A program made the position numbers and the translations under genes. Positions 48,870 through 53,503 of a stretch of 64,000 nucleotides of DNA are shown in pieces. This DNA comes from an uncultured Lachnospiraceae bacterium. GTDB taxonomy: Bacteria; Bacillota; Clostridia; Lachnospirales; Lachnospiraceae. Under the pieces are notes generated by a model that saw only the letters and a program-made list of their open reading frames with translations, was not told the DNA's origin and did no database searches. The stretch is taken from assembly GCA_947246015.1 (NCBI GenBank), contig CAMXQE010000006.1:52125-116124 (forward strand), in the 5' to 3' direction. Every line of letters begins with the position of its first letter. The stretch's first letter is position 1.

Positions 48870-50216
48870 ATGCGGTTACCGGGAGAATATGAGTACAGCA
48901 ATTCTGGGCTGTCAATGAAATATATGACGATGGGCGTCTGTCTTTGCCTGATGCTGATTTTTGGAGTCGTATTATGGACCAATAAGGAGAATGATGCAAA
49001 AAAACATAAGGAACAGGAAACATCGGTGATGGTTTTGGAGCATGAAGCAGACGGTGTGGAAAACGCAGGCGGACAGGATAATGCCAAGGCGGCAGCACAT
49101 GCAGAAAGCGGAAGCGCGAAAACGGAAAATGCATCTGCGGCAGCTCCCGCAGCCGGGGCAATTATGGGATTTAACGGGGCGAAGACTTTAGAAGAGGTAG
49201 AGCGTCTTTATGCGGAGGGGAAACTGGTTGCATCGGATTTGGATTTTTGGGATATGTATCCGAAGACCACACCTGCTTATATGAGCGGTGCGTCTGCGCA
49301 GGAAGGGAATGACCGCGGGCAGGGAAGTTCCGGAATGGGTACAGGGACGGGAACCGGCGGAAGCGGGAGCCAGAAAGACAAATATGCGCGGTATGATGAA
49401 GAAGCGGAGCGGGAGCAGCAGAAAGAGGCTGAGAAGGAAGAACAGGACCCCTCTAAGGATGGTAAGCATACCCTGGTTATCCGTGCAAACGGCGAGGAAG
49501 AGTGGGTGCTGCTCAATCCTAATTTAGAGCGGAATACCTATGATTTCACGAATCTGACGATGCGGCAGGAGCAGCTGGCCTATTATGCGGACGGAAAAAC
49601 GTATTCCTATGTGGGGGCAGATTTGTCCAAATATAACGGAGAAGTGGATTTCGTGACGCTGAAGCAGTCGGGCGTGTCTTATGTAATGCTTCGGCTTGGC
49701 ATGAGAGGATACGGGAGCGGACAGATTCAGCTGGATGAGAAGTTTATGGACTATATTACAAAGGCGGAAGAAGCAGGGCTGAATGTAGGCGTGTATTTCT
49801 ATTCACAGGCGATTAGTGAAGAGGAAGCGGCGGAAGAGGCAAATTTCGTGATACAGAATCTGGCAGGACACCAGATTACTTATCCGGTAGCCTTCGATAT
49901 GGAATATGTTGCCAATGATACAGCCAGGATAGAAGCCCTGACCAGAGAAGAAAAAACAAAAATGGCAAAGACTTTTCTGGATACGGTGAAAAATGCAGGC
50001 TATAAACCTATGGTTTATGGAACAAAAGAATGGCTGATTAAGCAGGTGGACCTGACGAAGCTGACGGATTATGATATCTGGCTGTCCCAGCAGGAGGATG
50101 TGCCGGATTACCCGTATCAGTTCCAGATGTGGCAGTATTCGCAGGAAGGAAGGCTGAACGGGGCGGACGGGGATGTGAATCTGAACATCAGTTTTGTGGA
50201 TTATTCGGAAAAATAG
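48870..50216 (+). CDS. Membrane-anchored GH25 lysozyme-like muramidase
   Basis: N-terminal TM then GH25 core (GADLSKYNGEVDFVTLKQSGVSYVMLRLGMRGYGSG...NVGVYFYSQAI...YPVAFDMEY...MWQYSQEGRLNGADGDVNLNIS). Confidence 0.93.
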   Translation: MRLPGEYEYSNSGLSMKYMTMGVCLCLMLIFGVVLWTNKENDAKKHKEQETSVMVLEHEADGVENAGGQDNAKAAAHAESGSAKTENASAAAPAAGAIMGFNGAKTLEEVERLYAEGKLVASDLDFWDMYPKTTPAYMSGASAQEGNDRGQGSSGMGTGTGTGGSGSQKDKYARYDEEAEREQQKEAEKEEQDPSKDGKHTLVIRANGEEEWVLLNPNLERNTYDFTNLTMRQEQLAYYADGKTYSYVGADLSKYNGEVDFVTLKQSGVSYVMLRLGMRGYGSGQIQLDEKFMDYITKAEEAGLNVGVYFYSQAISEEEAAEEANFVIQNLAGHQITYPVAFDMEYVANDTARIEALTREEKTKMAKTFLDTVKNAGYKPMVYGTKEWLIKQVDLTKLTDYDIWLSQQEDVPDYPYQFQMWQYSQEGRLNGADGDVNLNISFVDYSEK

Positions 50217-51006
50217 TATATATTTTAGGAGAAAGCTTAAGGTGTGAGTAGATATCGGCATAGGCCGCAGGAGAAAGCCCCTCAATGTAATTGAGCGGGA
50301 AGTTGCGGTTTATGCCGTTTTTTTTCAGTACATCCACCGCTTTGTTGTAGGCGATGGCAGCTTCTTCTTCGGTGTCATAAATGCCTACCACATAACTGCT
50401 GCGGATATGGATGCGGACTTTATAGCGGTAACTGCCGTTGCCGGAGGGATGGGGAATCCGGGTGATACCATGGAACCGGTTGAGGATTTCAATGTTCTCA
50501 TAACGGTAGTCCGTCGTATCGCCGTTGATAAAACGGTAATCTTTGTCAAGAACCGCATAATTTTTAATGCCGTAACGGTTAAGAATACCGAACTGCATTC
50601 CATAGTCGTTCACAAAGAGGTGGCTGCCGCGGCGCATGATTTTTTTCGAGGAGTAATAAAATAAGTCGTCGATATCAAATTTTAATATATGGGAAGGTTC
50701 CATATAATATAGAAAAAACTTTTTTTTCAGATAAATCGGGGTAGGGAAATAAATGCCATTGTCCCGGAAATTAATCAGGCTGACCCATTTTTCAAAAGCC
50801 AAAGGGGAAGAGGGCAGGTAGTCTTCAACAGAGAGGGAGCAGTCCTGGGTTAAGGATAGGGCGCTGTGATAGGCGTGATGGGCGGTCAGGGCGTCGTCAA
50901 AACTTCCGAGGCTGATATGTTTTCCATGAAATGTGATGGAAGAACGGTAATAAACGGAATTATCTTTTTTTCTGGAGGGGTAAACACCGGGCAGATGGTT
51001 GTCCAT
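50188..51006 (-). CDS. AP2 - degenerate HNH - AP2 DNA-binding protein
   Basis: AP2-like N-terminus GVYPSRKKDNSVYYRSSITFHGKHISLGSFDDALTAHHAYHSAL; HNH-like YRFINGDTTDYRYENIEILN; C-terminal AP2 YRYKVRIHIRSSYVVGIYDTEEEAAIAYNKAVDVL; ATG 51006 with AAAGGAG RBS. Confidence 0.82.
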   Translation of the reverse strand: MDNHLPGVYPSRKKDNSVYYRSSITFHGKHISLGSFDDALTAHHAYHSALSLTQDCSLSVEDYLPSSPLAFEKWVSLINFRDNGIYFPTPIYLKKKFFLYYMEPSHILKFDIDDLFYYSSKKIMRRGSHLFVNDYGMQFGILNRYGIKNYAVLDKDYRFINGDTTDYRYENIEILNRFHGITRIPHPSGNGSYRYKVRIHIRSSYVVGIYDTEEEAAIAYNKAVDVLKKNGINRNFPLNYIEGLSPAAYADIYSHLKLSPKIYTIFPNNPQN

Positions 51007-51100: not shown

Positions 51101-51285
51101 AATTTTACCATGATTATACCATTTCAGCAAAAAGAATACAAATTTAGAAATATTTTAGATATAATTCGTGGACTTCCTGTATAAAATATTAAAGAAGTAT
51201 TACATTTGTGTGACATAAATGTATAAAATTGGTGACCGGATGTTAAGCGGTTATCAAAATCGTAAAGTATGAAGAGGATGGAAAA

Positions 51286-51912
51286 ATGTATAGGTATAAG
51301 AAAAACATAACGATATTACTTCTTTGCAATGTGATTTTTATGGTGTCATGGTTTAATCTGAAGGAGCTGCGGATGAACCGTGTTGCATCTACGGCGGCAT
51401 TCAGGATTCAGTATATGGAAGACTGTGCAAATCTGGACGAGTCCAGTTTCATCAGGATGCTGGCAGAGGCGTCTTCGGGACAGCGGGTCGTGGGTTATAA
51501 TGTATTGGAGCGGAAAGCAAAGTATTCTTTGTCGGATGAAGATTATGAAGTGCTGCTGCAGATTGTAGAGGCGGAGGCCGGCTGTGAAGATATAAAAGGA
51601 AAGATGCTGGTGGCAGGAGTGGTTATGAACCGGGTGGAGAACAGCCAGTTTCCGGACAGTGTGAAAGAAGTGGTATATCAGAGGGAACATGGCGTGGCAC
51701 AGTTCTCACCGGTGGCCAACGGACGGCTGGGCCGGACAAAGATAAGCGAGGAAACGAAAGAAGCAGTGGAACGGGTGCTTTACGGAGAGGATATTACGGA
51801 AGGGGCTCTGTATTTTGCATCGCGTAAATATGCGGACCCGGAACTGATGAAGTGGTTTGATAACAGCCTGACGCTTTTGTTTTCTTATGGTGGACATGAA
51901 TTCTTTTCTTAA
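51286..51912 (+). CDS. Cell wall hydrolase, SleB family
   Basis: LLQIVEAEAGCEDIKGKMLVAGVVMNRVENSQFPDSVKEVVYQ...GVAQFSPV...GALYFASRKYADPELMKWFDNSLTLLFSYGGHEFF. Confidence 0.93.
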   Translation: MYRYKKNITILLLCNVIFMVSWFNLKELRMNRVASTAAFRIQYMEDCANLDESSFIRMLAEASSGQRVVGYNVLERKAKYSLSDEDYEVLLQIVEAEAGCEDIKGKMLVAGVVMNRVENSQFPDSVKEVVYQREHGVAQFSPVANGRLGRTKISEETKEAVERVLYGEDITEGALYFASRKYADPELMKWFDNSLTLLFSYGGHEFFS

Positions 51913-52012
51913 CTTCGCATTGCACAGGGGGGAAAACTATGCTATACTTTATGCGGTTGAAGCGTTCCCTGTTTTCAGGGAAAAATGATGCATAAGTATG
52001 AGAGGTAAGGCA

Positions 52013-53503
52013 ATGGAAGTTTTATATAACAGTACGAGGAACAACGGGATTCAGGTAAAGGCTTCGGAGGCAGTCTTAAAAGGACTTTCCGAGGATGGGG
52101 GTCTGTTTGTGCCGGACCATATTCCGGCATTGGACAAGGGATTAAAAGAATTGTCCGGTATGACTTATCAGGAAGTGGCTTATGAGGTAATGAAGCTGTA
52201 TCTGACGGATTTCACGGAGGAAGAGTTGAAAGACTGTATTGCAAAGGCGTATGATGGCAAGTTTGATACAGAAGCAATCGCGCCTTTGGTCAGTGCGGAT
52301 GGGGCATATTATCTGGAACTGTTCCATGGCGCTACGATAGCGTTTAAGGATATGGCACTGTCAATCCTGCCCCATCTGATGATTACATCGGCAAAGAAAA
52401 ACAAGGTAAAGAATGAAATCGTAATACTTACTGCAACCTCAGGCGATACGGGAAAAGCTGCGCTGGCAGGTTTTGCAGGAGTGGAAGGGACGAAGATTAT
52501 TGTCTTTTACCCGAAAAACGGCGTCAGTCCCATACAGGAACGGCAGATGGTGACGCAGAAGGGGGACAATACATATGTGGTCGGCATCCACGGTAATTTT
52601 GACGATGCGCAGACAGGTGTGAAGAAGCTCTTTGCGGACAGGGAATTGGAAGAACGGCTGGACAGGCAGGGGTTCCAGTTCTCATCGGCCAATTCCATCA
52701 ATATAGGGCGTCTGGTTCCCCAGATTGTCTATTATGTGTATGCGTATGTGAGGCTTTTGGCGGAAGGAAAGATTGCGGAGGGCGAAAAAATCAATGTAGT
52801 AGTGCCTACCGGAAATTTTGGCAATATCCTTGCCGCATTCTATGCAAAGAATATGGGGCTGCCCATCGGGAAATTAATCTGTGCTTCAAATGACAATAAA
52901 GTGCTTTATGACTTTTTCCGTACGGGTGTATATGATAAAAACAGAGAATTCGTGCTGACCAGTTCTCCTTCTATGGATATTCTGATTTCTAGCAATTTAG
53001 AACGGCTGATTTACCGGATTGCGGGAAATGATGCAAAGAAGAATGAGGAGCTGATGAAAGCGCTCTCAGGAGAAGGAAAATATGAAATTACGGAGGAGAT
53101 GAAATCCCGGCTGGAAGATTTTTACGGGAATTTTGCTACGGAGGAAGAGGCGGCAGAGACGATTAAAGGTCTGTACGGGAAGACAGGTTATGTCATCGAT
53201 ACCCATACGGCGGTAGCAGCCTGCGTGTACCGTAAATATGCGGAAGAAACGAAAGATGGGGCGCCTGCGGTCATTGCATCCACGGCCAGTCCTTTTAAGT
53301 TCACCCGCAGCGTAATGAATGCCATCGACGGAAAGTATGACAGGATGACGGACTTCGAACTGGTGGATGAATTATCTTCCCTGGCGAATATAAAGGTTCC
53401 GGCAGCGATTGAGGAAATCCGTACGGCTCCGGTACTGCATGACCATGTATGCGGAAAAGAGGAAATGAAGAAGACGGTGGAAGCTTTTCTTGGGATTAAA
53501 TAG
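52013..53503 (+). CDS. thrC: Threonine synthase
   Basis: MEVLYNSTRNNGIQVKASEAVLKGLSEDGGLFVPDHIP, FHGATIAFKDMALSILPHLM, TSGDTGKAAL. Confidence 0.96.
   Translation: MEVLYNSTRNNGIQVKASEAVLKGLSEDGGLFVPDHIPALDKGLKELSGMTYQEVAYEVMKLYLTDFTEEELKDCIAKAYDGKFDTEAIAPLVSADGAYYLELFHGATIAFKDMALSILPHLMITSAKKNKVKNEIVILTATSGDTGKAALAGFAGVEGTKIIVFYPKNGVSPIQERQMVTQKGDNTYVVGIHGNFDDAQTGVKKLFADRELEERLDRQGFQFSSANSINIGRLVPQIVYYVYAYVRLLAEGKIAEGEKINVVVPTGNFGNILAAFYAKNMGLPIGKLICASNDNKVLYDFFRTGVYDKNREFVLTSSPSMDILISSNLERLIYRIAGNDAKKNEELMKALSGEGKYEITEEMKSRLEDFYGNFATEEEAAETIKGLYGKTGYVIDTHTAVAACVYRKYAEETKDGAPAVIASTASPFKFTRSVMNAIDGKYDRMTDFELVDELSSLANIKVPAAIEEIRTAPVLHDHVCGKEEMKKTVEAFLGIK

Follow-up and report, generated by a model that had tools for sequence, protein, structure and literature searches.

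A conserved Lachnospirales protein with two AP2 domains and a degenerate HNH core, probably a domesticated homing endonuclease

The window analyzed here, 64,000 nucleotides of DNA from an uncultured Lachnospiraceae bacterium, carries on its reverse strand a complete gene for a protein with the layout AP2-(dead HNH)-AP2. The reading frame opens with an ATG at 51006, with a Shine-Dalgarno-like AAAGGAG upstream, and its 3' end overlaps that of a convergent GH25 gene by 29 bp. On the promoter side lie a divergent gene for a SleB-like hydrolase and, beyond it, the threonine synthase gene (thrC). Coordinates of the genes, protein domains and upstream elements are collected in Table 1.

Table 1. Genes, protein domains and upstream elements at the AP2 locus, in window coordinates
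Feature	Coordinates	Strand	Evidence
GH25 lysozyme-like protein, convergent neighbor	48870..50216	+	Pfam PF01183 E 1.2e-29; 89/92 loci
AP2-(dead HNH)-AP2 protein gene, complete ORF, 272 aa	50188..51006	-	Orthologs, dN/dS ~0.09
C-terminal AP2 domain, residues 177-231	50314..50478	-	AlphaFold2, hhalign, Pfam
HNH-like core, residues 100-176	50479..50709	-	Core-only hhalign; HNH_3 matches
HNH motif remnant, residues 156-176, DYRFINGDTTDYRYENIEILN	50479..50541	-	Profile alignment and column counts
Family-specific helix and strands, residues 68-110, with KWVxLxNFRDNGIYFxTPIY	50677..50805	-	Column conservation
N-terminal AP2 domain, residues 7-54	50845..50988	-	AlphaFold2, hhalign, phrog_953
Putative sigma-A-type promoter of AP2 gene: TTGTAT, 17 bp, TATAAT	51113..51141	-	Conservation in congeners
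Conserved block upstream of SleB-like gene	51135..51214	+	Kept in genomes without AP2 gene
SleB/CwlJ-type cell wall hydrolase (Hydrolase_2), divergent neighbor	51286..51912	+	PF07486 E 1.6e-25; 85/92 loci
Threonine synthase (thrC), syntenic neighbor	51998..53503	+	Pfam Thr_synth_N E 4.5e-26; 70/92 loci, some interrupted by contig ends

An AlphaFold2 model built on a 43-row ortholog alignment (pLDDT 91.4, pTM 0.76) placed an AP2 fold at residues 8-54, a mixed core at 71-174, a second AP2 fold at 181-229 and a helical tail at the C-terminus. Both AP2 folds comprise a three-stranded sheet and a packing helix with the AP2 sequence pattern, as judged by the model, Foldseek and Pfam: strands 8-12, 18-26 and 29-36 with helix 39-54 in the first, and strands 181-185, 193-200 and 204-210 with helix 213-229 in the second. 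A sequence-only reading of this DNA had placed two AP2-like domains around the core and traced the protein to a homing endonuclease; the domains are present in the model, and viral HNH-AP2 proteins were among the top fold matches. In the PDB the top match was to plant AP2 domains (Foldseek: TEM1, E 3e-3, probability 1.00). The best viral matches were to HNH/AP2 endonucleases (E 8.5e-11) at low TM-scores (~0.28), which means that the domains are placed differently or that their placement is uncertain. Matches to designed TIM barrels in the PDB were set aside as repeat-sequence artefacts.

In profile searches, the N-terminal domain matched the phage AP2 domain at E 6e-6 (hhalign), and phrog_953 covered residues 4-49. 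Pfam AP2 was detected weakly in the window protein (E 0.0017), in the best of 43 orthologs at 2.9e-7, and in 14 of the 43 members with E no higher than 0.1. At the level of whole families, the window protein matched phage HNH endonucleases at 8e-14 and 4e-7, and phrog_99 matched all 43 orthologs. Between the first AP2 domain and the HNH-like core is a segment peculiar to this family: 11 of the 43 columns at residues 68-110 are at least 95% conserved (147 sequences), and in profile comparison residues 68-99 had no known match and did not align with phage HNH-AP2 proteins. The protein is basic throughout (family median pI 9.3). Chance is excluded by the phage profile match, the shuffles described below and conservation across dozens of genera at dN/dS ~0.09.

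The stretch that matches the HNH motif DHINGDPLDNRxENL spans residues 157-174 (YRFINGDTTDYRYENIEI). We used as reference 11 aligned phage HNH-AP2 proteins; invariant there are, among others, the His of MHR, D-H, N and N-L-R, and the helix that follows has an invariant Asn. Phage D61-H62 align to R158-F159 of the window protein, and D166-Y167 occupies the DN position, which upholds the D-H to R-F and DN to DY replacements seen from the sequence alone. Residue counts then drew on six GTDB families of Lachnospirales, 147 unique sequences in all. Position 159, the catalytic His site, is Phe in 146/147 and His in none, so the His loss is conserved across orthologs, a check that the sequence-only reading had proposed. 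The catalytic Asp site, position 158, holds Arg in the window protein and Asp in only 8/147. Position 167, the second Asn of the motif, is F, L, Y, M or W and never Asn; Phe is commoner across the family than the Tyr of the window protein.

Other parts of the motif persist. D166 is kept in 141/147 sequences and R168 and N171 in all 147, and with N161 they form a nearly invariant set; D166, R168 and N171 are positions that hold the loop in HNH folds. The metal-ligand helix that follows the motif is deleted, appearing as a gap in the profile alignment and missing from the model, and the chain runs from the second strand directly into the C-terminal AP2 domain. Far from decaying, the dead core is conserved more strongly than any other region of the protein, with constraint at least equal to that on the AP2 domains. 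These sequence comparisons strongly imply that nuclease activity was lost, and loss of the catalytic motif together with domestication is well supported.

The gene was found in 81 of 200 sampled genera of Lachnospiraceae and in 111 of 392 genomes of the order Lachnospirales; no copy outside the order was detected among 245 class-wide and 399 phylum-wide genomes. Kineothrix alysoides KNHs209 (L003), a close relative, is among the carriers. The gene is single copy per genome, split or fragmentary matches aside. One ortholog, at G684:C1:3450200-3451600 (L215), is split into two frames and is probably a frameshifted or decayed copy. Members of family f2 (L105, L196-L205) have longer frames of 343-411 aa; the ones examined end in an additional, third AP2 domain, and their first is degenerate.

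The gene occupies one predominant syntenic site. The stable synteny proposed as a check was observed, with GH25, SleB-like and thrC neighbors fixed in most of 92 loci. In protein distance it tracks thrC, the SleB-like protein and GH25 (Mantel r 0.72, 0.80 and 0.77, respectively), with which it co-diverges, and dN/dS among congeners (~0.09) indicates purifying selection. The gene thus has the marks of a domesticated element: vertical inheritance, purifying selection and immobility. In three congeners GH25, SleB and thrC are contiguous and the AP2 gene is cleanly missing, a pattern that we take for the loss of a dispensable gene; its absence from more than half of the family's genera, as well as from these congeners, suggests that its function can be dispensed with.

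Signs of mobility (several insertion sites, or intron, phage or plasmid carriage) were not found: the gene has one predominant site, and a plasmid search returned no match to the gene. Two full-length "phage" matches, MT836856.1 (L131) and MT837267.1 (L130), are unverified "Bacteriophage sp." fecal scaffolds that hold the bacterial AP2 gene and were rejected as phage carriage; the former also carries thrC and is therefore probably host DNA. The single IMG/VR match was rejected as well, as it adjoins host-type leuCD genes. A phrog_99 search for intact relatives in Lachnospiraceae yielded mostly unrelated zinc-ribbon/AP2 proteins (L115-L128), which have two or three zinc-ribbon-like repeats (CxC...CGC) and one AP2 domain and reach five copies in one genome (G034).

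We favor, at a probability of roughly two in three, the reading that this protein is a domesticated, nuclease-dead HNH-AP2 homing endonuclease that now acts as a sequence-specific DNA-binding regulator. A regulatory role is suggested by strong selection on a basic protein that has two or three AP2 modules and no catalytic site. Weighing against this reading, no binding site, target or regulon was found, and the gene is dispensable. In the order of events that we infer, the ancestor would have been a mobile nuclease in which an AP2 domain came after the HNH core. A second AP2 domain would have been gained or duplicated at its N-terminus, the catalytic Asp-His, second Asn and metal-ligand helix would have been lost, and the gene would have settled permanently at a single chromosomal site at an early stage of Lachnospirales. 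The present protein most likely uses its two AP2 sheets to bind specific DNA sites, one or a few in number, and the former nuclease core may join the sheets like a rigid bridge or a clamp. It would repress or activate transcription without cutting DNA. Conserved -35 and -10 elements suggest that a vegetative sigma-A-type promoter drives the AP2 gene.

A domesticated, nuclease-dead protein might instead be an architectural or site-marking component of the chromosome or, as a variant, occupy the target sites of invading homing elements or phages and so block them. We regard this as unlikely. Such a task would suit a basic protein whose two or three DNA-binding modules are bridged by a highly conserved core; the patchy presence fits it as well, as does the lack of a conserved operator near neighboring promoters: footprinting of the conserved intergenic region at the locus found no operator for the AP2 protein. 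However, two AP2 domains of the plant-regulator type favor sequence-specific binding, and known defense families gave chance-level matches only.

The arrangement of the locus raises a more specific idea, namely that the protein regulates its own neighborhood: the divergent SleB-like gene and perhaps also GH25. In most genera the two divergent genes share a short promoter region. The putative promoter of the AP2 gene (-35 at 51136-51141, -10 at 51113-51118) is conserved in congeners, and its -10 element is gone in the three congeners that lack the gene. Upstream of the SleB-like gene is a block conserved across genera (AGAAATATT, a spacer and GTATAAAAT), which we take to resemble sporulation sigma promoters. 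Because this block is almost unchanged in the same three congeners, we interpret it as the own promoter of the SleB-like gene and not as an operator of the AP2 protein; its persistence without the AP2 gene means that neither SleB-like control nor autoregulation gains support from co-loss. Some genera, moreover, keep the AP2 gene beside thrC where the SleB-like gene is missing. A sporulation link sought by co-occurrence was rejected, as SpoIVA frequency was alike in both groups (54/81 versus 80/119, Fisher p = 1); presence of the AP2 gene is thus independent of SpoIVA, and co-occurrence at this level does not tie it to sporulation. Local control of the SleB-like gene consequently appears improbable.

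As in the HNH-AP2 endonucleases, an HNH-type core and an AP2 domain lie in a single chain, and the family profile aligned colinearly with the 11 phage proteins over ~118 columns (hhalign, E 5.9e-10). Most of that score is supplied by the C-terminal AP2 domain, which alone reached E 2.9e-9, and the core was for this reason profiled separately. With 147 unique sequences the core alone matched phage HNH-AP2 over 75 columns at E 5.2e-4, and its score of 24.1 was equaled in 0/200 column shuffles (maximum 19.2). Could the AP2 domains alone be homologous to endonucleases, and the motif likeness be chance? The core-only match is modest, its hhalign probability being low (17-31%), and the window protein falls well under the curated HNH_3 cut-off (12.2 versus 24.8 bits, E 0.14). 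Against this, the core match is colinear with the downstream AP2 domain, HNH_3 matches occur in 18/43 members (best E 0.0013), and N and R are invariant at structural positions of the motif. We therefore consider a core of other origin quite improbable. Colinear profile homology and the viral HNH-AP2 fold matches support the proposed descent from an HNH-AP2 endonuclease, and descent of the core from HNH is likely, not certain, on these profile data.

A still active nuclease with a non-canonical active site is very improbable: some HNH-type enzymes do vary in their motifs, and the nearly invariant N161, D166, R168 and N171 would agree with activity, but the general base is replaced by Phe in all but one sequence, the metal-ligand helix is deleted, and mobility is nowhere apparent: the gene keeps to a single site and a single order, matched no plasmid and has no convincing carrier among phages.

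Among known systems, the phage HNH-AP2 endonucleases (Bacillus phages Stahl/Slash and phi3T, RB49 RB49p040, IPA-HNH type) likewise have the HNH core directly before an AP2 domain. They keep D-H, both N residues and the metal-ligand helix, whereas the Lachnospirales family has lost D-H-N and the helix and has in addition an N-terminal AP2 domain and the segment 68-99. The Stahl protein also has a second AP2-like repeat, but at its C-terminus. Plant AP2/ERF factors, including the two-AP2 WRI1, share the AP2 fold with our family; similarity is confined to the fold and weak sequence resemblance, and the DNA-contact residues of the beta-sheet appear to differ. Plant AP2/ERF factors are not known to carry an HNH remnant. 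Descent of plant AP2 factors from HNH-AP2 endonucleases was proposed by Magnani et al. 2004 (cited in PMC5318435). Repurposing of endonuclease parts has a bacterial example in CapR, a phage-satellite repressor that derives from the DNA-binding part of T5orf172 endonucleases (PMC10448857). CapR thus offers, like plant AP2, a parallel in favor of our reading, with an endonuclease part turned to transcriptional repression in bacteria; it differs in its unrelated domains and in residing on a mobile satellite, not order-wide on the chromosome.

The AP2-(dead HNH)-AP2 protein has no Pfam family, NCBIfam and PADLOC gave chance-level matches only, and no description of the Lachnospirales family was found in open-access literature and family databases. 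Whether it represents order-wide bacterial AP2 transcription regulators derived from an inactivated homing endonuclease, and so an independent counterpart of the origin proposed for plant AP2/ERF factors, we judge to be evenly balanced. The HNH-AP2 origin idea is drawn from a comparison of plants with remote enzymes of phages and cyanobacteria; a bacterial lineage now appears to display a similar transition with the dead core attached, in a conserved single-copy gene. If so, with that core still present under strong selection, the route from nuclease to regulator would be readable and testable. The carriers are abundant gut bacteria, in which the host role of a retired homing endonuclease would be approachable.

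Phe at the catalytic His position was also observed in two HNH_3 proteins with FLDGD-type motifs (L132:1357-2196, VGFLDGD; L136:1372-2031, VCFADGD), whose remaining HNH motif scores far over the Pfam cut-off. These proteins differ from the AP2 family in keeping the downstream helix sequence and showing no AP2 pattern, and they match the Lachnospirales core weakly.
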